Below are positions 1 to 21,611 of a DNA stretch of 21,611 nucleotides, piece after piece. The notes beneath the pieces were generated by a model, which did no database searches, had not been told where the DNA came from, and saw only the letters and a program-made list of their open reading frames with translations. The stretch is taken from positions 1-21,611 of IMG/VR virus record IMGVR_UViG_3300024346_000594; one strand, written 5' to 3'. Numbering within the stretch: the first letter of the stretch is position 1; every line of letters starts with the position of its first letter. The position numbers and the translations under genes were made by a program. Source of the DNA: a virus.

Positions 1-413
1 GCGCCGGCGGAGTTGGTAATACATCATCTATAACAGGAACATCAACCTACTATGCTGGCGGTGGCGGTGGCGGTTCTGAAAATGCAACTGTTGGCCAAGG
101 CGGTGTTGGTGGCGGCGGCGCTGGCGGCTTAAATGTTGCCGCTGGAGTTAACGGCACTATAAATACTGGTGGTGGAGGTGGAGGTGGTGCAGCAGGTGCA
201 TATACCACGGCGGCATATAATTCATCAGGTGGCTCTGGTATTGTGGTTATCGCCTATGCAGATACATATGTAGATATTAGTGCATTTGCAGCTGGTCTTG
301 TAGTTAATGGAACGACTACAACCGGATCAAATATTCCAGCAGCAGATACCAACTCACGAGCTGGGTACAAAGTTTATAAATTTACATCAGGTACAGGTAC
401 AATTCAATGGTAA
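1..413 (+). CDS. C-terminal part of glycine-rich tail protein (partial)
   Basis: Open from the window edge, codons starting at position 3, to TAA at 411-413; about 136 residues are visible and the start lies outside. The first half is a glycine-rich stretch (runs such as YYAGGGGGGSE and TGGGGGGGAAG) followed by SSGGSGIVVIAY. The pattern of Gly-rich loops then SGIVVI-type beta strand is familiar from glycine-rich tips of phage tail fibres and adhesins. The last 55 or so residues (from ADTYVDISAF) form a small non-glycine C-terminal segment ending in TGTIQW. It opens the tail-fibre gene cluster, and its stop overlaps the ATG of the next small gene (ATGGTAA). A role in the virion tail or in receptor binding is inferred from composition and neighbours; the exact receptor role is unknown. 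Confidence 0.8.
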   Translation, partial: AGGVGNTSSITGTSTYYAGGGGGGSENATVGQGGVGGGGAGGLNVAAGVNGTINTGGGGGGGAAGAYTTAAYNSSGGSGIVVIAYADTYVDISAFAAGLVVNGTTTTGSNIPAADTNSRAGYKVYKFTSGTGTIQW

Positions 414-532
414 GTTGGATTCTTGATAAACAAACTTGTGAATGGAATCCCCTGTAGCATATCCTAGCGATAATAAAAATGTATACTTGGAACGAGTCTA
501 CTATGGCTTGGATAGAAATTAATAGGAAATAA
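407..532 (+). pseudogene. small tail-associated protein, reading frame broken twice
   Basis: Starting at ATG 407, which overlaps the preceding stop, the frame reads MVSWILDKQTCEWNP and then hits TAG at 455. Moving to the -1 frame at the C-run 449-452 gives PVAYPSDNK. Returning to the first frame at the A-run 475-479 gives MYTWNESTMAWIEINRK, stop TAA 530-532. Joined, these form about 41 residues that match, from memory, a short conserved phage tail motif of the kind W-x-L-(D/N)-x-x-T-C-x-W-x-x-P-V-x-Y-P-x-D-x-K-x-Y-x-W-x-E-x-x-x-x-W-x-E. The intact protein would need one extra C and one fewer A. This could be a decayed gene, two compensating homopolymer sequencing errors, or less likely recoding. 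The AGGAAA ribosome site of the next gene sits inside its 3' end. Confidence 0.55.
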
Positions 533-534
533 AG

Positions 535-3006
535 ATGACTACAAAAGTTAGACAAAGTACTGTACAGCAGGATAATATACAAATTGACTGGTTGTCTGAC
601 GTAGATACATCAACAGTAGCTCCCACGGACGGTCAGGCTTTAGTATATAACTTAGCTACATTAAAATGGAAACCCGGTACTGTTGCAGCTGGTGGTGGTA
701 GTGGAACTGTAACATCAGTTGCTGCCCTAACAATAACTACAACTGGTACAGATATTACTTCAACTGTAGCAACCGGTACTAGTACACCAGTTATTACACT
801 AAATATACCTACTGCATCAGCTAGTAATAGAGGTGTATTAAGCACAGCAGATTGGACAACTTTTAATAATAAGTTGTCTGCTACTAATGTAGCATACGTA
901 GGTACTACTAGTATTTCTCTTAGTAGAGCTAGCTTAGCTCAGACCTTAACTGGTATAAGCATTGATGGTACTGCAGGGAGCTTAGTTAATGCCTTAACTA
1001 TAGGTACAGGATTAAGTGGTACTTCTTATAATGGTTCCTCAGCTGTAACTATTGCAGTTACAAATCCAGTTCCTAGTCAGGCAAGTAATTCAGGTAAATA
1101 TTTAACTACTGATGGATCAACACTAAGTTGGGCTACAATATCGGGTAGTGGTACTGTAACCTCCATTACAGCAGGAACTGGTTTAACCGGCGGTGTAATA
1201 ACTAGTACAGGTACAATAGCCCTAGCTACAACAGCAGTAACTGCTGGATCTTATACAAATACAAATCTTACCGTTGATGCTTATGGCAGAATTACTGCAG
1301 CCTCTAGTGGAAGCGGAGGCTCAGGCGGTAGTGGAACTGTAACATCAATTGCTGCTCTAACAATAACCACAACTGGTACAGATATTACTTCAACTGTAGC
1401 AACCGGTACTAGTACACCAGTTATTACACTAAATATACCTACTGCATCAGCTAGTAATAGAGGTGTATTAAGCACAGCAGATTGGACAACTTTTAATAAT
1501 AAGTTGTCTACTACTGATGTAGCATACGTAGGTACTACTAGTATTTCTCTTAGTAGAACCAGTGCTGCTCAGACCTTAACTGGTATAAGCATTGATGGTA
1601 CTGCAGCTATTGCAACAACAGCAAATGCCCTAAATACCGCAAATTCTTATACAGTTACTGGGTTGACAATTAATAGCACTGGTGTTATAGCTCTTGAAAG
1701 TGGTGGTGATATAGTATTATGGCGTACTGGTGGAACAACTGGTGCAATCTTCTTTACTGGAAAAGCTAATAATCGTTATCTTTTCTACGATGGTACAGAT
1801 TTTCGTTTTGCTGCTGCTGGTGACTTATACGTTAATAACGCAAAAGTACTAACTACTGCTGCTACAATAGGTATAGCAAGTGGTGGTACTGGTCAAGTAA
1901 CTCAGCAACTGGCTATAAATGCCCTAGCAGGTGGTACTACAAGTGGTTACTATCTACGAGGTAATGGTACTAATGTTATACTGGCTGCAATTGTAGCTGG
2001 TGATGTACCTACCCTAAATCAGAACACTTCAGGATACTCAGCTGGTTTAGCTGGTGGTAATAGTACTACACTCCTAGGTTCTATACCGTATCAAAGTGCG
2101 GCAAACTCTACATCGCAACTACCACCTAATACTACTGCAACTAAAAAATTCTTAACGCAAACAGGTGATGGTACAAACGGAGCTATACCAGCTTGGAATA
2201 CACTAACTTCAGCGGATATACCGTCGTACTATATTGGTACAACTACACTAGCTTTTAATAGAATAAGCGCTCAGCAGACCTTAACAGGAATTAGTATAGA
2301 CGGTAGTGCAGGCAGTGTTGCTAATCTCTTAACTATTGGTACAGGATTAACTGGTACTTCTTATAATGGTTCCTCAGCTGTAACAATTGCAGTTACAAAT
2401 CCAGTCCCTACGCAAACAGGTAATTCAGGTAAATACCTAACAACTGATGGATCAACACTAAGTTGGGCTACAGTAGCTAGTGGAGGAGGTAGCGGAACAG
2501 TTACCTCTATTATAGCAGGTACTGGATTAAGTGGTGGTACAATAACTAGCACTGGTACTATTGCTCTTGCAAATACAGCAGTAACTGCTGGATCATATAC
2601 TAACTCAAATATTACTGTTGATGCTCAGGGTAGAATTACAGCAGCAAGTACGGGTACTGGAGGCGGAGGTGGATCAAGCACTCAAGTTGCTAATATGTAT
2701 CAAGCTGGGCCCCTAGTAGTCTATAATGGTACCTTACGCTGGTATGCGCCTTTTGCCTTAAATATAAGTACAGTAATTGGTAGACTAATTACTGCTGCTG
2801 ATTCTGCAGTAAATATTACGGTATTAAAAAATGGTACAAGTGCTGGTACTATAACTTTTGCTGCTAGTGCTCTAACATCTACGTCTTATACTACTGGAAT
2901 TGCTATGGCCGCAGGCGACTACATAACTATAAATATTACACAGATTGGCTCAACCTCTTATCCAGGTAGCAATCTTTATCTTCAATTGCTGTATGTTGCA
3001 GTTTAA
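535..3006 (+). CDS. repeat-containing tail fibre protein
   Basis: An 823-residue protein, almost free of Cys and rich in Gly, Thr, Ser and Ala, as expected for a beta-structured fibre. AGGAAA at 524-529 precedes ATG 535. The N-terminus contains LSDVDTSTVAPTDGQALVY, a segment often found at the base of aquatic phage fibres, probably the attachment part. The shaft holds two near-identical units of 93 residues (residues about 55-147 and 265-357), each carrying the common ASNRGVLSTADWTTFNNKL motif. A second duplicated unit (about 154-260 and 599-710) contains SSAVTIAVTNPVP and GKYLTTDGSTLSWAT. The last 110 residues, after a GGGGGSS linker, lose the repeats and look like a separate beta-sandwich tip that could contact the receptor. 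Function is inferred from architecture; no enzymatic motif was seen. Confidence 0.8.
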   Translation: MTTKVRQSTVQQDNIQIDWLSDVDTSTVAPTDGQALVYNLATLKWKPGTVAAGGGSGTVTSVAALTITTTGTDITSTVATGTSTPVITLNIPTASASNRGVLSTADWTTFNNKLSATNVAYVGTTSISLSRASLAQTLTGISIDGTAGSLVNALTIGTGLSGTSYNGSSAVTIAVTNPVPSQASNSGKYLTTDGSTLSWATISGSGTVTSITAGTGLTGGVITSTGTIALATTAVTAGSYTNTNLTVDAYGRITAASSGSGGSGGSGTVTSIAALTITTTGTDITSTVATGTSTPVITLNIPTASASNRGVLSTADWTTFNNKLSTTDVAYVGTTSISLSRTSAAQTLTGISIDGTAAIATTANALNTANSYTVTGLTINSTGVIALESGGDIVLWRTGGTTGAIFFTGKANNRYLFYDGTDFRFAAAGDLYVNNAKVLTTAATIGIASGGTGQVTQQLAINALAGGTTSGYYLRGNGTNVILAAIVAGDVPTLNQNTSGYSAGLAGGNSTTLLGSIPYQSAANSTSQLPPNTTATKKFLTQTGDGTNGAIPAWNTLTSADIPSYYIGTTTLAFNRISAQQTLTGISIDGSAGSVANLLTIGTGLTGTSYNGSSAVTIAVTNPVPTQTGNSGKYLTTDGSTLSWATVASGGGSGTVTSIIAGTGLSGGTITSTGTIALANTAVTAGSYTNSNITVDAQGRITAASTGTGGGGGSSTQVANMYQAGPLVVYNGTLRWYAPFALNISTVIGRLITAADSAVNITVLKNGTSAGTITFAASALTSTSYTTGIAMAAGDYITINITQIGSTSYPGSNLYLQLLYVAV
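698..976 (+). repeat. 279-bp direct repeat, copy 1
   Basis: In-frame direct repeat inside the fibre gene; its partner is at 1328-1606, exactly 630 bases downstream. The two copies differ at only about a dozen and a half scattered positions, with a central stretch of over 120 bases identical. Differences are transitions and clustered substitutions, not restricted to A positions. Confidence 0.95.
994..1310 (+). repeat. second intragenic fibre repeat, copy 1
   Basis: Encodes the module beginning LTIGTGLSGTSYNGSS and ending around GRITAASSG. It is matched by a diverged copy at about 2329-2660. Boundaries are approximate because the linker lengths differ. Confidence 0.85.
1328..1606 (+). repeat. 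279-bp direct repeat, copy 2
   Basis: Second copy of the unit at 698-976, same length and same reading frame, encoding the same 93-residue fibre module with a few substitutions, for example SRTSAAQ instead of SRASLAQ. Confidence 0.95.
2329..2660 (+). repeat. second intragenic fibre repeat, copy 2
   Basis: Partner of 994-1310, encoding LTIGTGLTGTSYNGSS to GRITAASTG. It is more diverged than the 279-bp pair and has a three-residue Gly-rich linker insertion in the middle. Confidence 0.85.
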
Positions 3007-3029: not shown

Positions 3030-4823
3030 ATGGCTATTATTAGAACAAATAAGTACTTATATCAAGTACCGTCGTTAACAGAAGACCCAACACCTGGCTC
3101 AAGTAATATGTACTTTCAGTTGGATGCTTTTGATAAGACGACACTAGCTTATCAGATGGATTCAGCCTTATTGTTAAATCCTGCTAGCTACTTACCAATA
3201 ACTTTTGGTAATTCTGCATCAAACGTAACTGAAACTCCAGGTGCATTAGGCGGTATCCTAATGCTTAAAGGTGAGGTAACTCACTGTAGACATACTCAGT
3301 ATAATACGCAAAGTGTGGTTGGTGATAATATTGATCAAGCTCCTTGGGCAAGCATGGACCCTACGCGTCCAATTGTACAAAGTAGATCAGATACGCAGGG
3401 TAGTAATACTCATATGATGCTGAGTTATAATTTTATACCTGGTACAGCTGCTAATACAACCTACTACGTTCGAAGAGTAGGTACTGGTGATTACAGCTCA
3501 TCTCCGCCCTTAACCAGCTCAAATGTTACAGCTGCTCACTGCGTATTCCCTCTATTCCTAAATACATCTACTGGAAATATTGTTTTATATGACGCTGCGC
3601 ATACAACAGCAGGTCCAGGCACTGCACAAGGTGCTGCATTTACAGGCACATTTGGTACATTTACTTTTCAGTTTGTAGGAAATGTACAAGGTACTAAGTC
3701 AATGCAGTTTGTAGGTACAGGTAACGATGGTTACGCAGTATTTATGCATATGGATGTCGGTAATGACTACACTCAGAACTTCTATAGGTACAATGATTCA
3801 AATAATACAGCGACTCTACTAGTTAGTCATACAGCGTCTCCTGCTGCTAACGCCGCTGCTAATGGACATGCTGGTGGGACTAAAGTTGCAGGCACAGGAG
3901 GTAATTTCTGTGTTAAATTTGCATCTAGAACTTTTACAAATCCTAATACTAGTAAGCCTGCTTTTTACACACCTTACTTTGATTCTAATGCAAAGTATTG
4001 CCCACAGTATTTCGAATGGGATAAATCTGGATCAACATTTACAAGAAATACAAATACTACTGTTGCCTATGCAACAGGTACTCAAGCCACCTACTGGACA
4101 CATGATCTTGTAAGTGTAGCAACTGCATCAACTATCTATAATATGGAACGTGCATACGTAAATGAGTCGTTTACATCTGGTGGCACAAGATACGTTACCC
4201 TAATGTATTTACATGGTGCAGGCGGTGTTCTTGATGCAGCCCCCTTACAACGTACTTTTGTTACCTATAGTGTTGATTCTGCAAATTACACAGCCCTAAG
4301 CTACCATAGCAGCGTTGTTATTCCACAGACTCCAAAAAATATTGTATGGTTAAATGATGATCGTACATTAATGGGCGTATTTGCACATACCTCATTCTAT
4401 ATCTACAATTTTAGTAGTGGATGGAATTTAACAGCTACATTCCCCTACCAGTTCAATGCAGTAGGACGTGATAGCCTAGGACGTATCTGGGCACAGGATA
4501 GTGGACCATTTAACTATGGTCGTGTACACTTACTATCTGGCTCAGTACCTACAACAGTATCAGTAGTACCTGCACAGAGTACTTATACATATGCTGGAAC
4601 TACGATTAATAGCACTATTGCCCTAAATGCCTACGATGCAACAGGTGCAAGAATGGTAGCTAATGTTACCCTGACTGCTGGCAGTACTGCCCTAAAATTC
4701 GTAAGTGACGGTAATCAGGTTAGTACAATTACTGTAGCTACTAGTGCATCTGTAGATACAACTGTAAATATTGCCGTAATCGGTGCAGGTTCAACAAGTA
4801 TTACTACTTCTGTAGTATTTTAA
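3030..4823 (+). CDS. large putative tail or virion surface protein, paralogue A
   Basis: 597 residues with TAGGAG upstream of ATG 3030. Aromatic- and Thr/Ser/Asn-rich with no membrane segment. It is clearly paralogous to the 641-residue product at 5084-7009. Shared blocks are the N-terminal MAII-type start with EDP-PG-NM and DKTTLAYQ, a QFVG...DGYAVF and NDYTQNFY region, a QRTFV-YSV block, PKNIVWLNDxRT, a VGRDxxGRIWA motif, and the C-terminus. The central repeating strands with G-R-I-W resemble beta-propeller blades, which is an inference. The last 90 residues (from TTVSVVPAQSTYTYAGTT) look like a bacterial Ig-like domain of the kind common at the ends of phage surface proteins. Receptor binding or tail decoration is likely from context; no named family is claimed. 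Confidence 0.7.
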   Translation: MAIIRTNKYLYQVPSLTEDPTPGSSNMYFQLDAFDKTTLAYQMDSALLLNPASYLPITFGNSASNVTETPGALGGILMLKGEVTHCRHTQYNTQSVVGDNIDQAPWASMDPTRPIVQSRSDTQGSNTHMMLSYNFIPGTAANTTYYVRRVGTGDYSSSPPLTSSNVTAAHCVFPLFLNTSTGNIVLYDAAHTTAGPGTAQGAAFTGTFGTFTFQFVGNVQGTKSMQFVGTGNDGYAVFMHMDVGNDYTQNFYRYNDSNNTATLLVSHTASPAANAAANGHAGGTKVAGTGGNFCVKFASRTFTNPNTSKPAFYTPYFDSNAKYCPQYFEWDKSGSTFTRNTNTTVAYATGTQATYWTHDLVSVATASTIYNMERAYVNESFTSGGTRYVTLMYLHGAGGVLDAAPLQRTFVTYSVDSANYTALSYHSSVVIPQTPKNIVWLNDDRTLMGVFAHTSFYIYNFSSGWNLTATFPYQFNAVGRDSLGRIWAQDSGPFNYGRVHLLSGSVPTTVSVVPAQSTYTYAGTTINSTIALNAYDATGARMVANVTLTAGSTALKFVSDGNQVSTITVATSASVDTTVNIAVIGAGSTSITTSVVF

Positions 4824-4837
4824 TTAGTGAGATAATA

Positions 4838-5071
4838 ATGGAATTTAAAGATATTACAAAAGGTACAGAACCAAATACTACGGCCTTACGATTAGGATAC
4901 GAGGGTGGAACCCTCCAAGTCTCAACAGTTACAATTATTGATGAGGTTGAAACTGTAACCTTATCAATGATTCAGCCATGGAAATGTAATCCAGATGGTA
5001 CAAGGTCTGACTTTCTAAATGCTGAAGATGCCTTTGCTTGGGCTGAGTCAGTAAAAGACTCTATATTATAA
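4838..5071 (+). CDS. small hypothetical protein between the two paralogues
   Basis: 77 residues, beginning MEFKDITKGTEPNTTALRLG and ending in a predicted acidic helix (FLNAEDAFAWAESVKDSIL). The middle has alternating hydrophobic residues (LQVSTVTIIDEVETVTLSMI) typical of beta strands, so a small alpha/beta fold is likely. A GTGAGA element lies a few bases before ATG 4838. It sits 14 bases after paralogue A and 12 bases before paralogue B, so the three are surely co-transcribed. A role as chaperone or accessory of the flanking tail proteins is possible but unproven. I do not recognise the family. Confidence 0.7.
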   Translation: MEFKDITKGTEPNTTALRLGYEGGTLQVSTVTIIDEVETVTLSMIQPWKCNPDGTRSDFLNAEDAFAWAESVKDSIL

Positions 5072-5083
5072 AAGGATACTATC

Positions 5084-7009
5084 GTGGCAATTATTAAAAC
5101 AATTAAAAATGCTTATTGGCTTACGGCTATACTATATGAGGATCCGATTCCTGGGGCTACAAATATGTTTATACAACATGATGCCTACGATAAAACAACT
5201 TTAGCCTATCAGTTTGATGTAGCAATGAATTGGAATACTCGAGGTACTTATAGTTCTATGGCTTCAGAGGACGGTGCTAATCATAGTGGGTTTGGTGTTT
5301 CTGCTACTATGGTTAACTATAATTCTGCAACGTTAGCTTCTGTTCCATCTTATGGTGCTCAACAAGCTGCTATTAATATTTTAACCGGTGTATTACAACT
5401 TAATGGTGAAACTACTCATGTAAGGCATCAGGTAGTTAACGTAACGGCCGGTGACTATAGACAAAATTTAGACGTTGCACCATTTGCATCAATGGATTCA
5501 ACTAGAAGACCTAAGCCTACTAATTACTTTACTGATGGTACTAATAACATAGTAATGGGAGTATACCATCATAATGGAACTGCAGGTGGCCAAGCGTCCT
5601 ATATTCCTAGATATTGGCTAAAAATTAATACAAGCTCTCAGGATTTAGTAAACAGTAATTTTGTAAATGCTAATACATTTCTACCTCTTACATTGGGCGG
5701 TGTAACTGGCGGCTATCAAGTCTGGCCATTATACAGAAATCCTGCTACTAATAATATAGTATGGGGTGGTCAGACTGGTATATTAAATGTTATACCATAC
5801 TCAATGCGCGGACTTATTCAGGGACCTGCATTTAGCTCTGCGCCAACATTTATCTCTCCTGTAACTTCTTTTATAGCAAGTTACAGTAGCCAATTTGTTG
5901 GAGTAAGCTCCGCAGACGGCTTTGCTATATTCTTAGAAAATTCAGCATTAAATGACTATACACAGAATTTCTATAAACTTGTAGATACAGTAACACAAAC
6001 GGTAACTAATACAGTATTAACAGCCGTATCAGCTGTCCCAGTCGCGGCAGGTAGTAGTGCTGGCGGAGTACCATCTGGTAGAGGGTTAAGCTTTGGGGGT
6101 AACTTACCTAAGTATGCTAGTAGTACGTTTGCCGAAACAGGGTCAGTCTCAGGGTTCTACCTACCCTTTTTAGATAATAACGGTACTTACCAACCGTTTT
6201 ACTATCAGTGGAATCGTAGTACTGATGCATTTACAAGAAATAGTAACGTAACCGTAACATATGCTACCGGAACTTTTGCTTCCTACTTTGGTGTAGATAC
6301 TCAGAGTCAGACTGCTACTGGTAATGCATTTGGTATGAATAGGTTCCTGTGGAATGAAACATTTACCTATAGTGGTACTAGATATCTAATGTTTGGACAA
6401 CTAAATGGTGCTGGTGGTACATATGACAGTACGCCTACACAGAGAACTTTTGTTTGCTATAGTGTTAATGCCGGAGACCCTAAACTGCTAACCTATCACA
6501 GCTCACTAGTTGTTCCACTTACACCTAAAAATATTGTCTGGTTAAATGATGCACGTACAACCGTTGGTATTATTACACATACTAACTTCTACATCTATGC
6601 ATTCAATGGTACAACTTGGACACAAACAGTTAACCTGCCCTATCAAATGAGTGCAGTAGGTAGGGATAATACTGGACGTATCTGGGCAACAGACGTAGGT
6701 CCACTAGGTCAAGGTAGATTGCACCTAATTTCTCCTACTACTCCAGTAAGTATTACAGTAACACCAGCAAGCACAAACTACTCGTATGCAGGAAGCACAA
6801 TCACATCAAGTGTTGCAGTAAATGCATACGATAGTACAGGCACCAGAATAGCAGTAGCTGTTAAACTAGTTATTAGTGGTGCGTCCATGACATTTGCTAG
6901 CAGTAACCTAACCACTACTATAACAACTAGCGCAAGTGCTGATACAACAGTACCTATTTATATAACAAATGGTGGTGTAAGCAATATTATTGCTAGTGCT
7001 GCTATTTAA
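5084..7009 (+). CDS. large putative tail or virion surface protein, paralogue B
   Basis: 641 residues, starting at GTG 5084 with AAAGGA at 5071-5076; the GTG gives MAII, matching the paralogue at 3030 and so supporting this start. It shares the full domain order of paralogue A: N-terminal EDPIPGATNM and DKTTLAYQFD, the NDYTQNFYK block, ATGTFASYF, QRTFVCYSV, PKNIVWLNDARTTVGI, VGRDNTGRIWATD, and a final Ig-like segment of about 90 residues. It is longer mainly through insertions in the first third (for example around SYGAQQAAINILTGVLQLNG). Likely a virion surface or receptor-contact protein; the pair probably arose by tandem duplication. Confidence 0.7.
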   Translation: MAIIKTIKNAYWLTAILYEDPIPGATNMFIQHDAYDKTTLAYQFDVAMNWNTRGTYSSMASEDGANHSGFGVSATMVNYNSATLASVPSYGAQQAAINILTGVLQLNGETTHVRHQVVNVTAGDYRQNLDVAPFASMDSTRRPKPTNYFTDGTNNIVMGVYHHNGTAGGQASYIPRYWLKINTSSQDLVNSNFVNANTFLPLTLGGVTGGYQVWPLYRNPATNNIVWGGQTGILNVIPYSMRGLIQGPAFSSAPTFISPVTSFIASYSSQFVGVSSADGFAIFLENSALNDYTQNFYKLVDTVTQTVTNTVLTAVSAVPVAAGSSAGGVPSGRGLSFGGNLPKYASSTFAETGSVSGFYLPFLDNNGTYQPFYYQWNRSTDAFTRNSNVTVTYATGTFASYFGVDTQSQTATGNAFGMNRFLWNETFTYSGTRYLMFGQLNGAGGTYDSTPTQRTFVCYSVNAGDPKLLTYHSSLVVPLTPKNIVWLNDARTTVGIITHTNFYIYAFNGTTWTQTVNLPYQMSAVGRDNTGRIWATDVGPLGQGRLHLISPTTPVSITVTPASTNYSYAGSTITSSVAVNAYDSTGTRIAVAVKLVISGASMTFASSNLTTTITTSASADTTVPIYITNGGVSNIIASAAI

Positions 7010-7024
7010 CTATGGACACAAACT

Positions 7025-9916
7025 ATGTCATACTTATTAAGCGGACTTGATTTAGTAGTTAACAATACTACTAGTATTACAGTTAATACTAGTCAAACTA
7101 CTATACAAGGTGACATAGCTCCCCAAGATAATGTAATTGCTGTAAACAGTACAGTTACTAGATTCGCTACTCCTGATAACCTTGCTGTAGCCTTAATTAA
7201 ATCAACTTCTACGGCTGCAAGCTTAATTAATGTAACAGCAAAAGCACTAAATACTACTGAAGTACCTATATCAGCAACTGTTGAAGGTAACGGGTTAAAA
7301 AACTTAATTACTAATTACTATGAGGGTATTACATATACTCCACAACTATTAACCTGTGTAGGAGTTAATGATACAAGTACTACTATTGGGGATTTAAGTA
7401 GTAATAATTTTATTTTTACTAATAATAATACTGCTACTGTGTCTAATTTAACACCTTTTTTAAGCTCCCGTGCCTATAGTAGCATATTGTTTAATGGTAC
7501 TAGTCAATCATTAACAACTACAGTTGCCGCTAGTAGTTCACTAGATTTAGCTACTGGTGCTGGTAATTGGACAATAGAGGGTTGGTTTTATACTACTAGT
7601 ATTGTTGGTAGTAAATCAATAGTTTGGAAAACTGCTGCAGGAAATCCATCATACGCTCTGTGGATTAGCGCTACAACACCGCAATGGATCGTAGGCGATG
7701 GTGCGAGTAGTGGCACATCATTCAATTTAGCAGCAATAACAGCAAATACTTGGTATCATTTTGCCCTAGTAAGAAATGGCAATACCCTAACTCCGTATAT
7801 GAATGGTGTTAGTCAAACAGGGGGAACTATAGTTTCTGCTATGGGCAATGGCGGTGCAAGTACAACGTTATATATTGGTGCTGCCTCTGATGGTAGATAT
7901 TTTCCTGGATACATATCTAATGTTCGTATAGTTAAAGGTTCAGCATTATACCTAGGCAACTTTTTGCCACCAACAACAAACTTTTCAGCAGCTTCAATTA
8001 CTAATATAACAACAAAAGTTAGTGCTAGTACTACTTATACTAAATTAATTTATGAACCTTTAAATATTAACTTATATAATAGCTTAAAGTATACTAGTCC
8101 CACAGGACAAACCGAAGTATACGATCCAGATTTAGTAGGTAACTCCAGAATAAATAGCTATGTAGTAAGTAATCTTTCTAATAAAAGTATTGTGTCTGAT
8201 ACTAAAATAGTGAACATAGCTCTATCTCCTGAATTTTATGTTAATGGGCCCGATGCTCCAATTGTTTTAAGTACTGAGGGTCGGGGTACTACTACTACTA
8301 CTACTCTTACTACTACCTTAATAACTCCAGTACAGGGTGGGGGTAGTTTTAATGGTACTAATCAATATCTAAGTATACCAAGTACTACATTGTTTGCCAT
8401 GGGAACAAACAACTTCACTATTGAAGGTTGGGTGTACATGACTTCTTATACTAACAGTGTTGCTGGCGGCGGATTGTTTGGTACTGCTGGAGGATCTCCA
8501 GCAACCAGCGGATATTACTTAAATCTTGGACAAAATATTAATACCCTTAGAATTACCAGTAATGCTAGTGGTGCATGGCAGGATGACATAACTGTTACTA
8601 CGGGAAATGGAGTTCCGTTAAATACATGGACACATCTTGCTATGGTTAGAAATGGTAACTCGCTTGTGCTATATAAAAATGGTGTTAGCGTGGCCAGCAG
8701 AACAGACATTACTACTTGGAATTATTCTTCTCTATCAAATAACGGATATATTGGATACGCTAATGACGGTTCTGGAACCGTAAGATATTTCACAGGATAT
8801 ATGAGTAATATTCGTGTAGTACAAGGTGTAGCAGTGTACACAGGCAACTTTACAGTACCTACTAAACCCCTGACAAAAGAACAAAATGCCGGTACTAATA
8901 TTCAGGCAATATTAGGTACACAAACTACTTTATTAACCTTACAAAATCTAGAAACATTAGTTGATAACTCAAGTTTAGCTAATACTATTAGTAATAATAA
9001 TGCAGTTACAATAGCTTCAGCTTATAGCCCAACATGGACGCCTTATTTAGCTCCACTATCTACTGGCGGATTTAAGTTTACTGGTGGTGCTAGTGAATAT
9101 TTTACTCTGCCCGCTTTAAATACAGTATTTCAATTTGGTACAGGTGACTTTACTATTGAACTATGGGTATATATAACTAAAAACCAAACTGGATATATAT
9201 ATGATACTAGACCTACAACTACACAAGGAGCCTATGCTACCTTATATTATAGTAGCGTTGCTGGATGGATTAGTTATGATACCGATGCATCTAGTAGACT
9301 AACTGCTCTGGTATCACTAAATACATGGTACCACGTGGCAGTGTGTCGAATTAGTGGTATATCTAAACTATATCTTAATGGAACACAGTCAGGGTCGTCA
9401 TATACTAGCAGTAGTTCGTATTTAACTAGCAGTTCTCTGACACATATAGGTGCATCTACTTATACAACAGGTGCTGCTCCTTTTGCAGGACAGATATCTA
9501 ATTTACGTGTAGTTAAGGGACTTGCAGTATATACTGGAAACTTTACTGTACCAACAAGCCCACTAACAAATACACAAACTTCTAGTACTAATATAAGCCC
9601 TATTCTAGGCGGTTATACCAGTTTAATAATTGCGCAAGATAGTACTATATTAGACCGTTCACTCTATAGTAATATTCTTACTAGTAGTGTTAGTAGTGTA
9701 ACACCTTCTGGGTTATACGGTCCTGTTGTTGGCGTTAGTACTAATACTAGCACTATTGCTAATATTGCAGGAGCCTATGTATCCACACCCACAATTAACG
9801 AAACTAACATAGAATACATAAATTATCGAACTGACCCTAGGTCAGTAAATAAACGAGTTAAGAACCTAATAGTTGGTACAACAGGAGTGCTTGAAGAATT
9901 GCAGTCTTGGTCATAG
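7025..9916 (+). CDS. three-LamG-domain tail adhesin
   Basis: 963 residues, ATG 7025, 15 bases after the previous stop, with only a weak GGA ahead. Three concanavalin/LamG-like jelly-roll domains lie at about residues 155-313, 439-610 and 680-845. Each shows the classic order F-N-G-T-x-Q/E-x-L, F-T-I-E-x-W, NTW-x-H-x-A-x-V/C-R, Y-x-N-G and a closing S-N-x-R-V-V-x-G-x-A-x-Y-x-G-N-F. LamG domains bind sugars or other surface ligands, so host-surface recognition is the likely job. The N-terminal 90 residues and the region around TSPTGQTEVYD (about 356-410) are shared with the next gene. An (ACT)6 tract at 8288-8305 encodes a Thr run between domains 1 and 2. Confidence 0.85.
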   Translation: MSYLLSGLDLVVNNTTSITVNTSQTTIQGDIAPQDNVIAVNSTVTRFATPDNLAVALIKSTSTAASLINVTAKALNTTEVPISATVEGNGLKNLITNYYEGITYTPQLLTCVGVNDTSTTIGDLSSNNFIFTNNNTATVSNLTPFLSSRAYSSILFNGTSQSLTTTVAASSSLDLATGAGNWTIEGWFYTTSIVGSKSIVWKTAAGNPSYALWISATTPQWIVGDGASSGTSFNLAAITANTWYHFALVRNGNTLTPYMNGVSQTGGTIVSAMGNGGASTTLYIGAASDGRYFPGYISNVRIVKGSALYLGNFLPPTTNFSAASITNITTKVSASTTYTKLIYEPLNINLYNSLKYTSPTGQTEVYDPDLVGNSRINSYVVSNLSNKSIVSDTKIVNIALSPEFYVNGPDAPIVLSTEGRGTTTTTTLTTTLITPVQGGGSFNGTNQYLSIPSTTLFAMGTNNFTIEGWVYMTSYTNSVAGGGLFGTAGGSPATSGYYLNLGQNINTLRITSNASGAWQDDITVTTGNGVPLNTWTHLAMVRNGNSLVLYKNGVSVASRTDITTWNYSSLSNNGYIGYANDGSGTVRYFTGYMSNIRVVQGVAVYTGNFTVPTKPLTKEQNAGTNIQAILGTQTTLLTLQNLETLVDNSSLANTISNNNAVTIASAYSPTWTPYLAPLSTGGFKFTGGASEYFTLPALNTVFQFGTGDFTIELWVYITKNQTGYIYDTRPTTTQGAYATLYYSSVAGWISYDTDASSRLTALVSLNTWYHVAVCRISGISKLYLNGTQSGSSYTSSSSYLTSSSLTHIGASTYTTGAAPFAGQISNLRVVKGLAVYTGNFTVPTSPLTNTQTSSTNISPILGGYTSLIIAQDSTILDRSLYSNILTSSVSSVTPSGLYGPVVGVSTNTSTIANIAGAYVSTPTINETNIEYINYRTDPRSVNKRVKNLIVGTTGVLEELQSWS
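7121..7272 (+). repeat. 152-bp near-identical block shared with next gene, copy 1
   Basis: Matches 10040-10191 over 152 bases with five differences; the last 112 bases (from 7161) differ at a single position. It encodes residues about 33-83 of the three-LamG protein. The flanking coding sequence is much more diverged. Confidence 0.95.
8288..8305 (+). repeat. (ACT)6 trinucleotide tract
   Basis: Six tandem ACT codons followed by CTT and more ACT codons, giving a Thr-rich linker between LamG domains 1 and 2. Length changes would stay in frame. Confidence 0.95.
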
Positions 9917-9931
9917 AAAAGGAAATAAGTT

Positions 9932-12136
9932 ATGTCGTATCAATTAAGTAGACTTGATTTAGTTGTTAGTAATGCTACTACTCAGATTACAGTAAACACT
10001 AATCCGTCTACACAAAGTTATATTAATGGTGATATAGTTCCCCAAGATAATGTAATTGCTGTAAACAGTACACACAATAGATTCGCTACTCCTGATGACC
10101 TTGCTGTAGCCTTAATTAAATCAACTTCTACGGCTGCAAGCTTAATTAATGTAACAGCAAAAGCACTAAATACTACTGAAGTACCTATATCTCCTACATA
10201 TTTTAGTAACTTAAATAATACTTTAAAAATAAATTACGACGGTGAGTACTATGTAAAACTACTACTATTAAATAATAATAGTAGTACTATAGTAGACGGT
10301 AGCAATAATAATTATACTATAGTAAATACCAGTGACTCCGTATGGCCTGGAGTCAGCGGAATGGGTGGTAGCACTGGTGGCCCCTTTGGCACTGGTGCTA
10401 GTGGGTTTTTTAACGCCCTAGAAAGCGACTTCTTACGTATTAACAACCCTATATCTAGCCTACTAGGTGCAGAGGATTTTACCGTAGAATTTTTTATACG
10501 GGGGTCAACAGACTGGTCAACCGCACCTGTAATAATTGATACTGGTTCTAACCTAGGATTTCAATATTGGCAAGTATCTATTACTGCTACTGGTCAGGTA
10601 CAGTTTACATACATTAATGGACCAGGTAATGCTACAAATGTAGTAACTACTAGTACAATGGCCATAACTGTTTGGTACCACGTTGCCATAGTTAGAAATA
10701 ATACTGTACAAACACCTGGTAATAACTTTAATATATATATTAATGGTATATCTGGAGTTTCTGCCCTAATTGCAAATAACTGGGGCGATACTGGTACTAG
10801 TGCTAATACTATACTTATAGGTAAGAGCGCAAATAATACACGATATCTTCCTGCTAACCTATCTAATCTAAGAATAACACAGTCTGCAGTTTATACAGGT
10901 AATTTTACTCCGCCTATCTCTAACCTTCAGGTATCACAGGCAGCTTCAGCATATGTAGCAGCAATACCTGCAGGTAGAAAATTAAATACAAAGTACAGTA
11001 CTACTCTTAGTAAGTCAGCTGTTTATAATCCTACACAATTACCTTTATATAATAATTTAGCGTATACTAGTCCAACAGGTCAAACAGAGGTATATGATAA
11101 CAGTTTAATCATTAATAGTTACGTAAACTCTACTGCTAATAAAAATGTCATATCTTCTCAAGCTACTATAAACATAGCTAGTAGACCAGACTTCTATATT
11201 ACTGGCTCGGATGCTCCTAATATATCAGGGTATTCTTTAGGTGCCTCTGTCTTAGTTACTAATACTGGTGGAGCTTTTTTTAATGGCGCGGCGCAGTATT
11301 TGTTAATAACCGGAACTACATCGGGACCACTGGATCTAGCCGCAGGAGCAGGTAACTGGACCGTTGAATGTTGGTTCAATCCTGGCTCAGTTACTGGTCA
11401 GCAGTCTATATTTTGGAAAGGTGGTACCAGCGGTAGTGTAAATCCATCATATGCATTTTTCCTTAGCGGCACCGGCGGCCAGTTTATTGTTGGCGATGGC
11501 GGCGGTGGTGGTGCAGTTGTTAATGTTCCAGGCAGCACTTTTGCTATTAATACTTGGTATCATTTCGCATTAGTACGTAATGGAACTACTTTTACAGCGT
11601 GGATAAACGGCGTAGCATATTCAACTACTCTTGTCTTTACCATGAGCAATACCAGTAACAACAAATTAACCATAGGTAGTAGTACTGCTGACAACTCTAC
11701 TAGATATTTTAATGGTCAAATTAGTAATTTTCGTATAGTAAAAGGTGTAGCAGTATATACAGGTAACTTCACTCTACCTAATATTAGTTCTTTAACTGCT
11801 ACTCAGTCTGCTGGTACTAATATTAGTGCTATCTCAGGCACACAAACTAGTTTACTAACACTGCAAAACTCTACCTTACTAGATAATTCAACGTACTCTA
11901 ATGCTATTACTAATAATCTTGCTGGAGTTCAATCTTTACCCTATACTCCTCCACTACTATCTACTACTAGTTTATTTTATATAGGGGGAGCAGGCCAAAC
12001 TGTGTCAACCCCAAGCACTCCTGCATATATTATAAATACTACTAAGTACAATGACCCTACGCAAGTAGAGGGCTACTTTAGTAGCTTTATACCGCAGCAT
12101 ACTGGTGAAGAAGATAGAATACAAGCGTGGGTGTAA
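9932..12136 (+). CDS. two-LamG-domain tail adhesin
   Basis: 734 residues; AAGGAAA a dozen bases before ATG 9932. It has the same plan as the preceding gene with one LamG domain fewer: a common N-terminus (MSYxLSxLDLVVxN to LNTTEVPIS), LamG 1 at about residues 159-327, the TSPTGQTEVYD spacer, LamG 2 at about 447-615, and a C-terminal tail ending in IQAWV (compare LQSWS). LamG 2 has all the signature pieces: FFNGAAQYL, WTVECWF, NTWYHFALVRNG, ISNFRIVKGVAVYTGNF. Probably a second host-recognition protein that shares the docking N-terminus with its neighbour. It is the last gene of the tail block, followed by the hairpin region. Confidence 0.85.
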   Translation: MSYQLSRLDLVVSNATTQITVNTNPSTQSYINGDIVPQDNVIAVNSTHNRFATPDDLAVALIKSTSTAASLINVTAKALNTTEVPISPTYFSNLNNTLKINYDGEYYVKLLLLNNNSSTIVDGSNNNYTIVNTSDSVWPGVSGMGGSTGGPFGTGASGFFNALESDFLRINNPISSLLGAEDFTVEFFIRGSTDWSTAPVIIDTGSNLGFQYWQVSITATGQVQFTYINGPGNATNVVTTSTMAITVWYHVAIVRNNTVQTPGNNFNIYINGISGVSALIANNWGDTGTSANTILIGKSANNTRYLPANLSNLRITQSAVYTGNFTPPISNLQVSQAASAYVAAIPAGRKLNTKYSTTLSKSAVYNPTQLPLYNNLAYTSPTGQTEVYDNSLIINSYVNSTANKNVISSQATINIASRPDFYITGSDAPNISGYSLGASVLVTNTGGAFFNGAAQYLLITGTTSGPLDLAAGAGNWTVECWFNPGSVTGQQSIFWKGGTSGSVNPSYAFFLSGTGGQFIVGDGGGGGAVVNVPGSTFAINTWYHFALVRNGTTFTAWINGVAYSTTLVFTMSNTSNNKLTIGSSTADNSTRYFNGQISNFRIVKGVAVYTGNFTLPNISSLTATQSAGTNISAISGTQTSLLTLQNSTLLDNSTYSNAITNNLAGVQSLPYTPPLLSTTSLFYIGGAGQTVSTPSTPAYIINTTKYNDPTQVEGYFSSFIPQHTGEEDRIQAWV
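10040..10191 (+). repeat. 152-bp near-identical block, copy 2
   Basis: Partner of 7121-7272. The reading frame is conserved and it encodes the shared N-terminal docking segment of the two-LamG protein. Confidence 0.95.
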
Positions 12137-17895: not shown

Positions 17896-18069
17896 TTATT
17901 CTGCTACAGCTTCAGGGGCTGGAGCAGTATTTCCTGTTAACTCAGCAAACTCTTTAATCATTTTAGTGATTAAAGGTTGTGCTACTTTAAAAGGCATATC
18001 ACTTAGGGCTGCAATGATTGTATTCAATTCGTCCTGAGTAAAATTCATGCTATATTTTTGTGGTTCCAT
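17896..18069 (-). CDS. 57-residue hypothetical protein
   Basis: Minus-strand ORF, ATG at 18069-18067, TAA at 17898-17896. It reads MEPQKYSMNFTQDELNTIIA and on, ending APAPEAVAE. The body is two short amphipathic helices (TQDELNTIIAALSDMPF and QPLITKMIKEFAELT) with an Ala/Pro tail. It begins directly after the ribonucleotide reductase stop, so it is the last gene of that operon and probably translationally coupled. The F-T-x-x-E-L-x-x-I-x-x-A-L-x-x-x-P pattern is common among tiny phage proteins of unknown role. Confidence 0.65.
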   Translation of the reverse strand: MEPQKYSMNFTQDELNTIIAALSDMPFKVAQPLITKMIKEFAELTGNTAPAPEAVAE

Positions 18070-20034
18070 TTACTTAATTGGGCAAGCGCCAGTTGAGCAG
18101 TCTTCGGCTACAATTTCGTCAAAACTATTTGTATCCTCTAGACTAACGGGTTGAAGAAGTTTAACGTAGTCGTTATAATCTTGTTCACTTACTACTTCTT
18201 GTGGAAGATATAAGTACCCAAGATCTTTAGCTGTCATACTAGGGTCAGTACGATAAATAAAACTAACACCTACATAACAATCCCAGTTATTTAGCAGCCA
18301 CTTAATAATATCTTCTACTTCGCTTAAGTCATAGGAGATGGTTACAGAAGTGTTCTGCTGAGTCCAGCTGGTCTGGATTAATTTGTATTTTTCTAGTTGT
18401 TCTATTGCGGAGTCTAAGTTTACTTCTTTGCCATTCACTTTGTGAAAGGGAACGTCATCCCATCTTACTGGAAAAGTAATTAATACACCCGAGTCATCTG
18501 TTGGATGATTAATAACATTATAGTTAGCAGCTCGTAGTTTATCTACTACTGGATCATACTTACTAAACTGAACATTATTAAAAATGTACTTACCTAAAGG
18601 CTTGTGAATTCCCTCAGTAGTATCCATAATCTTTGAAAGAGTACCTGAGGGTTTAACACAAGTTATGTTTTTTGGACTAGGAAGATCAAGCTCATCAGCC
18701 ATGCCAATGGCAGCAGCGGTAGCAGTACGTTTGAGATATTCATAATCATAGCCGCCCATATCAGGGCGTTTGGCAATACCAGTAAGGCCAACTCCACAAA
18801 GACGAAGGAAATAATTATTTAGATGCCAACTCTCTTGAAGGATTCCGTCATTTAAATTAACGCAAGTTTGCCTGTAGTTTGCACGGGCGGCAAGCCTAAT
18901 AGCTTCGTGTAATCCTGCGGTATCCCCTTTAAATTTGCCGATATCGGTTTCAGTGAGATTACAGAAGGACTTATTTCCCAGTAGGATTTCGACACAGGGA
19001 TTGCATCCTGCAAACCATGGTGCTCTTCTAGTAGCTTCCACTGCATTAATGAACCCTGGCTCGGATCCTCCAGCGTCTTCCATAAGATCAAAGATTTTTC
19101 GTAAGTCAGCATATAGGGGTTTTTCCTTAAAAACTAAGCTATTGTTTGATTGCTGCCTATGCGAGTTACCGTGTAGCCACCAATCTTTTTTAGCTGTAGC
19201 AAATTCTTCCCACTCAGGTTGCCCATACTCAAAAAGAGCAATTTCAGCAGAGCGGCGGCTAGATAGGATAGTACCAAGCCAGTTAATAATATCCATGATA
19301 TCCATTCTTGTAAGAAGGCTATCAGATCTACCATTAAGAATTTTAGCAATAGCTAGGTAGGCAGTACTAATAGCACTATCGCCACTAGAAATCCAGCCAT
19401 ATCCTTTTAATCTTTCGCCAGCAGGACGTAGTTGACTGAAGTCTAAAACTAACTCTTTTGCAGGATACTTACCTGCCATTAGTTTACCTACTGACTTTGC
19501 CCAAGCTTCTGCTGAGTCACCAACTTGAATAGTCCACGTTTTAGTATCACTATCCCAAGTTTCTGTATTATGTTCGCTTCCGCCTTTTGCGGTACGAGTA
19601 CTGCGTACTACTCTAATATTTTTAATAGGTTTCGAAAAACCATTTAGTGTTCCAACTACGGGTTTAAACCCAACACCGCAACCTTGGAGAAGTAACCATA
19701 AACAATCTACTACATCGTATACTGTTTCAACTTCTGTGAAACTACAATTAAATTGTGAGGCTTCTCGTTTTTGTGCAACTGTTGTTCCACCAAGCCAAAG
19801 GGAACGACCACTCATAGAAACTTTACGATCTAACATTAGCTGTTCTAAATCATATAGTTCAGCAAACTCTAGGTCTGTTAATTCTCTACGGGCTGCTCGT
19901 TCCCATAACCATTGTTGGTGGTCTATTACTCTTGAAACTGTCTCCTGCCAAGTTTCAAAAGTTTTTCCGTCATCTGATAAAGGTCTGTTGTATGTTCTGC
20001 GTGTAATTACTTGTGCTCTTGTTGAGACCGTCAT
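18070..20034 (-). CDS. nrdJ: class II (adenosylcobalamin-dependent) ribonucleoside-triphosphate reductase
   Basis: 654 residues, ATG at 20034 preceded by AAGGGG, overlapping the previous stop by one base. It reduces ribonucleotides to deoxyribonucleotides using a cobalamin-generated thiyl radical. The monomeric RTPR pattern is visible: Cys97 in FNCSF (first active-site Cys), GCNPCVE with radical Cys347 and Glu349, Cys358 in SFCNLTE, PSGTLS near 475, and the C-terminal redox pair C646-x4-C651 in CSTGACPIK. The spacings of Cys347 to Cys358 and of the tail cysteines match the Lactobacillus leichmannii enzyme, while the total length is about 85 residues shorter. No intein or intron interruption is seen. 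Supplies DNA precursors, together with dUTPase upstream. Confidence 0.95.
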   Translation of the reverse strand: MTVSTRAQVITRRTYNRPLSDDGKTFETWQETVSRVIDHQQWLWERAARRELTDLEFAELYDLEQLMLDRKVSMSGRSLWLGGTTVAQKREASQFNCSFTEVETVYDVVDCLWLLLQGCGVGFKPVVGTLNGFSKPIKNIRVVRSTRTAKGGSEHNTETWDSDTKTWTIQVGDSAEAWAKSVGKLMAGKYPAKELVLDFSQLRPAGERLKGYGWISSGDSAISTAYLAIAKILNGRSDSLLTRMDIMDIINWLGTILSSRRSAEIALFEYGQPEWEEFATAKKDWWLHGNSHRQQSNNSLVFKEKPLYADLRKIFDLMEDAGGSEPGFINAVEATRRAPWFAGCNPCVEILLGNKSFCNLTETDIGKFKGDTAGLHEAIRLAARANYRQTCVNLNDGILQESWHLNNYFLRLCGVGLTGIAKRPDMGGYDYEYLKRTATAAAIGMADELDLPSPKNITCVKPSGTLSKIMDTTEGIHKPLGKYIFNNVQFSKYDPVVDKLRAANYNVINHPTDDSGVLITFPVRWDDVPFHKVNGKEVNLDSAIEQLEKYKLIQTSWTQQNTSVTISYDLSEVEDIIKWLLNNWDCYVGVSFIYRTDPSMTAKDLGYLYLPQEVVSEQDYNDYVKLLQPVSLEDTNSFDEIVAEDCSTGACPIK

Positions 20035-20213
20035 TATTCCCCTTCTAAAGTTTTTAACTTTTTAGTTAAAATAAATGAACCATCACCTGCATCTTCCCAA
20101 TTAAGAACGTCTCCTTCAACTAATTTTAGTTCTGCTAGGACTTCTTCAGGGAGTTGGATTAGTAAATCCTTTGTTTCTGGATCTTCTTCTACTATTACTG
20201 TATACTGGCTCAT
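20034..20213 (-). CDS. AbrB/MazE-like small protein
   Basis: 59 residues, ATG at 20213-20211 with GAAAGAAG upstream, TAA at 20036-20034 overlapping the nrdJ ATG. The sequence MSQYTVIVEEDPETKDLLIQ, then LPEEVLAELKLVEGDVLNWE and GDGSFILTKK, follows the swapped-hairpin AbrB/SpoVT pattern (I-x-L-P-x-E-V-L-x-x-L-x-L-x-x-G-D-x-L-x-W and a final strand). Such proteins bind DNA as dimers or act as antitoxins. No toxin gene is adjacent. It could be a small regulator of the nucleotide operon; this is inference. Confidence 0.75.
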   Translation of the reverse strand: MSQYTVIVEEDPETKDLLIQLPEEVLAELKLVEGDVLNWEDAGDGSFILTKKLKTLEGE

Positions 20214-20227
20214 TTACTTCTTTCTGA

Positions 20228-20482
20228 TTATAACTGATTTACTTCTAAAGTAAAATCTTCAATGTGTTTGTCGTTTTTATTATTAACAACTACTAATTCG
20301 ATTTCTTCTTCAGGGAATTGTTCCTGTTCAAAGAATTCACATAAGTCAAAAGCGGCTTCAGAACTAGGAGTATCATCACCCAGTCTAACGCTATTAACCA
20401 AAACTGCTATTAAATCTAAGTGATACTCATTTAGACCTTTAAGTGTAATACTTCCATCTTCTTTATATTTAAGTTTAATCAT
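20228..20482 (-). CDS. 84-residue acidic hypothetical protein
   Basis: Starts MIKLKYKEDGSITLKGLNEY. It is acidic, with an EEEIELVVVNNKNDKHIEDF strand-rich end and a helical middle (DLIAVLVNSVRL, SSEAAFDLCEFFEQE). AAAAGGAAAT lies before the ATG at 20482. Located between dUTPase and the AbrB-like gene in the same direction with 17- and 14-base gaps, so part of one operon. I do not recognise a family. Confidence 0.7.
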   Translation of the reverse strand: MIKLKYKEDGSITLKGLNEYHLDLIAVLVNSVRLGDDTPSSEAAFDLCEFFEQEQFPEEEIELVVVNNKNDKHIEDFTLEVNQL

Positions 20483-20499
20483 TTTATTTCCTTTTTAAA

Positions 20500-20931
20500 T
20501 TAACCAGTACTTCCAAATCCGCCACTACCTCTACTAGTATCGTCCCATGGCTCAGTAGCATTCCAATTTTGAAATTCTGCTAACATTACTGGTGCGATTA
20601 CAAGTTGAGCTATTCTAGTTGTATAACGAGAGATAAAGTAGGGGTCTTCACCATTATTTTGTAGTAATACCTTAATATTACCACGATAGTCTGAGTCAAT
20701 TACACCTACTGAGTGTGGTATAGATACATGAATCTTACCCTGCGATGATCGGTTAAATACTAAACCTACATAACCTTCTGGAATTTTAACAGCAATACCA
20801 GTATCTACTAATTTTGTTTCACCTGGATACAGCTGTATATCTTGATTAGAGAATAAGTCTGCACCTGCATCTGTAGGGTGTGCTCTAAAGGGTATTGCTC
20901 TAACGTCGTCTGTTTTAACTAATATCTTCAT
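20500..20931 (-). CDS. dut: dUTP diphosphatase (trimeric dUTPase)
   Basis: 143 residues with all five dUTPase motifs: I PTDAGADLFS (19-28), II RSSQGK (61-66), III SVGVIDSDYRGNIKV (74-88) with putative catalytic Asp79 and Tyr82, IV TRIAQLVI (105-112), V RGSGGFGSTG (134-143). It hydrolyses dUTP to dUMP and pyrophosphate, keeping uracil out of DNA and feeding thymidylate synthesis. Motif II ends in QGK instead of the more common LA-type sequence. The ATG at 20931 lies 17 bases inside the 3' end of the exonuclease gene, so the two are co-transcribed. Confidence 0.96.
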   Translation of the reverse strand: MKILVKTDDVRAIPFRAHPTDAGADLFSNQDIQLYPGETKLVDTGIAVKIPEGYVGLVFNRSSQGKIHVSIPHSVGVIDSDYRGNIKVLLQNNGEDPYFISRYTTRIAQLVIAPVMLAEFQNWNATEPWDDTSRGSGGFGSTG

Positions 20932-21611
20932 TTAAATAAAAGTCCATTACTTTGTTAATATTTTTACAATTTTCTTCACCAATTGCTTCTTCGCAATTGG
21001 TAACTAAATCCATTAATTTGTAGTTTAGCATTAAGCCTTCACTACCAAACTCATTAAGTGCGGCAATATATTTATACTTACTACTGATAGGCAAAGCTGA
21101 GATAATGTCATAAGCACTACCATAATCTTGGACAAGCTGAAGCGCACGTTTTGGCCCCACACCAGGAACGCCCATAACATTGTCGCCTGAGTCACCCATA
21201 AGGCATTTAAGAGAAATATACTCATCTTGCGTACACTCGTAATGCGTATCCCAGTTATCATGAGTTATCTCCTTACGAGTAACGTATGAGAAACGTGAAA
21301 CTCCAGGAGCTACTAGCAAGTCCCAATCTTTATCGGAGGACACTAACCATACTTGGTTAATATTGTAACGTTTGTGTTTTGATACTATATAGGCAGCAAT
21401 ATCGTCTGCCTCTACGTTTGGAAATCTAAGAACAGGAAATTTACCCTCATCTTCGTATCTTGAAAGTATAACTTGCACTTCCTCAAAGAATGCCTCAAAC
21501 TCGGCAGCTTCTTCTTCGGTTTGATTAGCGTACTTATCTTTGCGATTCTGCTTGTATAGAGGATAAAGAGCCTTGCGATATGAGCTAGCGCCCATATCAC
21601 CTGCAATTATA
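20915..21611 (-). CDS. 5'-3' exonuclease / flap endonuclease (partial, N-terminus outside)
   Basis: The reading frame stays open to the window edge (codons IIAGD before Met at 21595), so the true start is outside and that Met is internal. The remaining sequence follows the FEN/T4 RNase H/T5 exonuclease plan: GDMGASSYRKALYPLYKQNRK (helical-arch region), VEADDIAAYI with metal ligands Glu62, Asp64 and Asp65 (counted from the internal Met), SSDKDWDLL with Asp88 and Asp90, and CLMGDSGDNVMGVPGVGPKRA with Asp135, Asp138 and a helix-hairpin-helix DNA-binding segment. It removes RNA primers or processes flaps during phage DNA replication. First visible gene of the minus-strand operon. Confidence 0.92.
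   Translation of the reverse strand, partial: IIAGDMGASSYRKALYPLYKQNRKDKYANQTEEEAAEFEAFFEEVQVILSRYEDEGKFPVLRFPNVEADDIAAYIVSKHKRYNINQVWLVSSDKDWDLLVAPGVSRFSYVTRKEITHDNWDTHYECTQDEYISLKCLMGDSGDNVMGVPGVGPKRALQLVQDYGSAYDIISALPISSKYKYIAALNEFGSEGLMLNYKLMDLVTNCEEAIGEENCKNINKVMDFYLNEDIS

Follow-up and report, generated by a model that had tools for sequence, protein, structure and literature searches.

Tfa is a chaperone for tail fibres that is encoded beside the fibre gene, and the tail-fibre assembly proteins go by the family name Tfa / Caudo_TAP. Related arrangements have been described for individual phages. In Pam3, a glycine-rich domain forms the end of the fibre gp24, for which gp25 acts as chaperone (PMC9608196), and V22 gp27, encoded downstream of the fibre gene, is required for fibre binding (PMC7289586). 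Pam3 gp25 and V22 gp27 are, like Tfa and like the proteins of the PHROG family phrog_7759, small proteins encoded behind a fibre gene, and the glycine-rich end of the Pam3 fibre resembles the fibre genes upstream of phrog_7759. The likeness of phrog_7759 to Pam3 gp25, V22 gp27 and Tfa is one of place and partner only: the family matched no Pfam family of such chaperones and, by sequence or by fold, no solved structure.

Here we describe a copy of this gene in a 21,611-base environmental virus record (hereafter the window, meaning the whole stretch of DNA analysed). The window copy shares with phrog_7759 the C-terminal module and the glycine-rich fibre neighbour, but it lacks the N-terminal two thirds and the usual start, and it carries two frame changes. 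We consider it probable, at roughly 70 %, that positions 407-532 are a recently decayed remnant of a phrog_7759 gene. On this reading the locus is the remnant of an ordinary and widespread phage gene, and its family, of uncharacterised function, is already in PHROG.

Frame structure of the locus

Read straight from position 407, the frame gives MVSWILDKQTCEWNPL* and ends at a TAG (Table 1). Three pieces in frames 0, -1 and 0 join into a protein of 41 residues, and translation confirmed the frames and coordinates of this reading, which had been proposed in a preliminary description of the DNA. Runs of at least four identical bases occur exactly twice within 407-532, one of C4 and one of A5, and both are sites of the frame changes, in agreement with that description. 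A homopolymer run would be the simplest site for each change; the first may have occurred anywhere from the Asn codon at 446-448 to the Val codon at 454-456. The same description called the two shifts compensating. This term carries no functional meaning here, and the pair of changes restores no product because the TAG at 455-457 lies between them. The ATG of piece 1 overlaps the upstream stop and derives from CAA-TGG, with which the upstream gene ends; CAATGG is also present in the loci L180, L181, L222, L226 and L228.

Table 1. Features at and around the putative remnant, in window coordinates.
Feature	Position	Strand	Remarks
Glycine-rich tail-fibre-like gene, 3' part, 136 codons, open at contig start	3..413	+	ends ...GYKVYKFTSGTGTIQW*
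Putative deletion junction, upstream TAA stop abuts Ser-Trp codons of the module	411..415	+	sequence reading versus relatives
Putative remnant, piece 1, MVSWILDKQTCEWNP	407..451	+	frame 0; translation, profile test
C4 run, frame change to -1	449..452	+	
Putative remnant, piece 2, PVAYPSDNK	451..477	+	frame -1; matches intact relatives
TAG stop	455..457	+	straight reading ends after 16 residues
A5 run, return to first frame	475..479	+	
Putative remnant, piece 3, MYTWNESTMAWIEINRK and stop	479..532	+	frame of 407 again; coding 479-529
Intact 823-aa fibre-like repeat protein, next gene	535..3006	+	

Identity of the joined protein

The joined protein matches PHROG phrog_7759 with an E-value of 7e-9, at profile positions 83-122 of 125. 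A tblastn search against phage genomes, suggested earlier as a check, found similar genes in 28 phage records (E up to 10), the best at E 9e-8 and all below 60% identity. On a profile of 12 relatives, with the window's own sequence left out, the joined protein scored 66.4 bits, as high as intact members, versus 33.0 bits for the straight read-through; pieces 1 and 3 taken singly reached 21.2 and 20.5 bits. These relatives had been found via the joined protein or via gene order, which gives the profile test a slight circularity that the PHROG match does not share. When the 27-nt middle was shuffled 1000 times and the best of three frames was taken each time, the top score was 54.2 bits, and a score of at least 66.4 bits occurred in 0 of 1000 shuffles. 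The stretch spanning the first joint is present in intact relatives, with WNPPVAYPSD found in L198, L204, L210, L212 and L246.

The intact family

In 12 phage loci (L007-L018) and in L002 the family gene is a single frame of about 115-130 residues. The protein has the layout MAHFAKV...QTSYNT...RKNYAGIGYTYD..RDAFIPPKP-[module], and the C-terminal module, SWxLxxxTxxWxxPxxxPxDxxxYxWxExxxxW, forms its last third. Pelagibacter phage Greip gp58, Roseobacter phage CRP-143 gp40 and Prochlorococcus phage P-RSM4 PRSM4_050 are examples of phrog_7759. Intact full-length copies occupy the same slot elsewhere: L002, which was found via the window's 3030-4823 gene, has the family gene at 5017-5394, followed by a fibre-like gene and then by the homologue of 3030-4823.

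Scanning viral contigs with the full-length L002 protein yielded 489 loci with a relative, 80 of which were fetched; when close members in a small alignment served as the query, 186 loci were obtained, and 80 were fetched. The fetched loci L002-L277 (n = 276, some of them repeating one contig) hold 197 module matches in 191 loci, the window copy not counted. Not one of these 197 copies is frame-broken and not one stands alone, in a sample made up of the best tblastn matches, in which broken copies may be under-represented. Stops within the module alignments were seen only for L198 and L271, and in both the alignment overruns the gene's own final stop. At least 60 residues lie N-terminal to the module in 192 of the 197 copies; of the remaining five, L212, L262 and L263 are truncated where the contig ends, and L020 and L021 carry a different, short N-terminus. 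Each of the 17 named viral records searched contains a family member, with two or more matches in four of them, and an internal stop was found in 0 of 24 matches.

Measured against this family, the window copy keeps the place behind a glycine-rich fibre gene (3-413); it is not full-length with an N-terminal domain, and with its TAG and two frame changes it is not one open frame. The earlier designation as a small tail gene holds insofar as the family belongs to the phage tail region. It does not hold as to completeness, for the first two thirds of the protein and the usual start are absent.

Apart from the window, the module is mobile. It is duplicated in L134 and in L279 (353-805), and at L280 (446-1051) the family protein is doubled by fusion to 201 aa. 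On a different short N-terminus it occurs in proteins of 69-71 aa in L020, L021 and L278 (933-1148).

The missing 5' part

The upstream gene at 3-413 matches phrog_2295 with an E-value of 1.1e-15 and Gly_rich_2 (PF21722) with an E-value of 8.5e-5, the latter at 23.1 bits and thus just below the cut-off of 24.3. Its C-terminal 56 aa are 68-78% identical to ten IMG/VR loci. In nine of these (L180, L182, L202, L205, L206, L213, L222, L226 and L228, on 8 contigs, L180 and L226 being on one) a full-length family gene follows 6-11 nt past the end of the match. The tenth, L181, has two such fibre ends and a full-length family gene behind the second. Behind less similar fibre ends another fibre gene comes next instead, and the companion is therefore not needed behind every fibre gene.

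At the fibre end and gene start the DNA of L180, L222, L226 and L228 reads CAATGGTAGGAAATATGGCACATTTTGCA. In the window, CAATGGTA runs directly into AGTTGGATTCTTGAT, where the module begins with Ser-Trp. About 252 nt of L180 (2674-2925), with the usual start included, are absent from the window, as is the start region that normally carries a TAGGA-like element. A profile of 49 full-length members, applied to the window in six frames, matched only with its positions 81-119 and with no N-terminal part. Supply of the module front from elsewhere in the window was considered and rejected, since the full-length profile finds no second match; read-through of the upstream stop was likewise rejected, since translation in the upstream frame does not continue into the module.

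This data may suggest the following course of events. Normally, an intact phrog_7759 gene sits behind a tail-fibre gene of the glycine-rich kind. An ancestor of this phage may have lost ~252 nt, so that the fibre gene's stop came to abut the codons of the C-terminal tryptophan-hairpin module; the usual start codon would have gone with the deleted DNA, as would the first 80-odd residues of the protein. With a single-base frame change at each of the only two runs, nothing would be translatable past 16 residues, and the remnant most likely makes no product. The deletion presumably came before the frame changes, although the order of events is not established, as three pattern scans for close relatives that share the deletion junction or the joints gave 0 matches. 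The frame changes themselves are presumably real mutations that were fixed once function had been lost, and the survival of all 10 invariant residues suggests that the loss is recent.

Decay, sequencing error or slippage

The preliminary description had offered three readings, namely homopolymer sequencing error, a freshly decayed gene and, just possibly, expression by slippage. The freshly decayed gene is the best supported of these, and the 5' loss is not a product of homopolymer error. The whole window contains 294 runs of four or more, of which 264 lie inside 24 other ORFs, and the frame is intact at all of them. Hence, a genome-wide homopolymer error is rejected. If two events fell at random on 266 runs, the chance of hitting just this pair would be about 3e-5, and any sequencing error must therefore be local.

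In one form of local error, the 5' loss would be real and the consensus would be wrong at both frame changes, which lie close to the end of the contig. The window would then hold a 41-codon, module-only mini-gene whose ATG overlaps the upstream stop. The site is no more than 532 nt from the end of the contig, a region in which the consensus may be of poor quality, and homopolymers are the only places where the changes occur. In the joined protein, every one of the 10 columns invariant in alignment A1 is kept; under free decay, the chance that all 10 survive is 0.63, 0.10 and 0.01 after 2, 10 and 20 random substitutions, respectively. Two indels without visible missense decay appear a little odd for a decaying gene and would be expected from error or from a very recent event. 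The ATG at 407 moreover shares the frame of piece 1, as its equivalent in L180 shares that of the full gene, and the module is known on another short N-terminus in the 69-71-residue proteins mentioned above (L020, L021, L278). On the other hand, such errors would have struck at 0 of the 264 other runs, a module-only gene is found in 0 of the 197 other copies, and the usual start region is gone. Runs of four and five are also short for most types of error. We regard consensus error as unlikely, yet as an explanation to be reckoned with.

A mis-assembly of the whole stretch appears far less plausible. Sequences from two phage populations would have been joined into a chimera that lacks the 5' part, and both runs would be errors of the same weak region, which would suit the end of an environmental viral contig. 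However, the join preserves the normal order of fibre end, family gene and a further gene of fibre type, and a search of 350-600 found no direct repeat that could cause a mis-join. Programmed slippage, by which an intact shifty gene would yield the joined protein, fits the position of both joints at homopolymers and the family-like product, but can practically be dismissed: it needs two opposite shifts within 27 nt on short runs (4 and 5), the first joint AAT CCC CTG is no X XXY YYZ heptamer, no frame change is conserved at a slippery site, with 197 of 197 other copies in one frame even where runs lie near the joints (C4 in L200, A6 in L204 and L226), and the start region of the family is not left in the window.

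With decay as the preferred reading, positions 407-532 should be recorded in annotation as a remnant; neither a small gene nor a signal for frameshifting should be entered there.

Possible function of the intact family

The AlphaFold prediction with 49 members is a confident model (mean pLDDT 93.8, pTM 0.81), in which a predicted N-terminal strand-strand-helix-strand part is followed by C-terminal strand pairs. Compared with the PDB, the full-length family fold reached a best E-value of 2.0, with a Z of at least 2 in 0 of 73 chains, and no solved structure was clearly similar to the family by sequence. Among models of viral proteins, nine matched the fold with an E-value of at most 0.001, and no function is named for any of them. 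Pfam returned no family up to E 1 for the full-length L002 and L180 proteins and only a CXCXC repeat (E 0.043) for the L181 protein; no Pfam sequence match places the family in Tfa / Caudo_TAP. The literature search gave no mention of 'phrog_7759' and, by title or start of abstract, no paper on the family.

Among 90 distinct full-length members, namely those not found through the upstream gene, a glycine-rich fibre-type gene ends just upstream in 67 (64 with the stricter first signature), by a signature that was composed after viewing the upstream tails and loosened once. The first control ORFs for this signature include non-genes, hence a stricter control was restricted to ORFs of at least 250 aa, in which the signature was present in 61 of 69 upstream ORFs versus 19 of 67 others. 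Thus, phrog_7759 sits behind glycine-rich fibre genes far above chance.

By analogy with Pam3 gp25 and V22 gp27, phrog_7759 could be a fibre-assembly companion. Tentatively, we hypothesize further that it may represent an unrecognised and very widespread type of companion, probably an assembly chaperone or a tip cap for glycine-rich fibre ends, whose tryptophan-hairpin module moves and duplicates on its own, and that the phage described here was caught losing its family gene, perhaps after the fibre became independent; we hold this extended proposal to be a doubtful but real possibility. Hundreds of environmental phages carry the family, for which there is neither a Pfam model nor a solved structure, and this provides a testable lead.

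Other genes of the window

The 823-aa protein encoded next to the putative remnant contains a long internal repeat, SGTVTS..AALTITTTGTDITSTVATGTSTPVITLNIPTASASNRGVLSTADWTTFNNKL, which occurs twice and nearly identically. Two related large proteins are encoded at 3030-4823 and 5084-7009, both matching phrog_20698, with a 77-aa gene between them, and this order recurs in L002 and L005. Neighbouring proteins of LamG type (Laminin_G_3) follow at 7025-9916 (E 3.6e-54) and 9932-12136 (E 3.8e-31). On the minus strand, 17896-21611 holds what we take, from the translations, to be a block of nucleotide-metabolism-like genes, presumably with a ribonucleotide reductase-like gene at 18070-20034, a dUTPase-like gene at 20500-20931 and a nuclease-like gene at 20915-21595.
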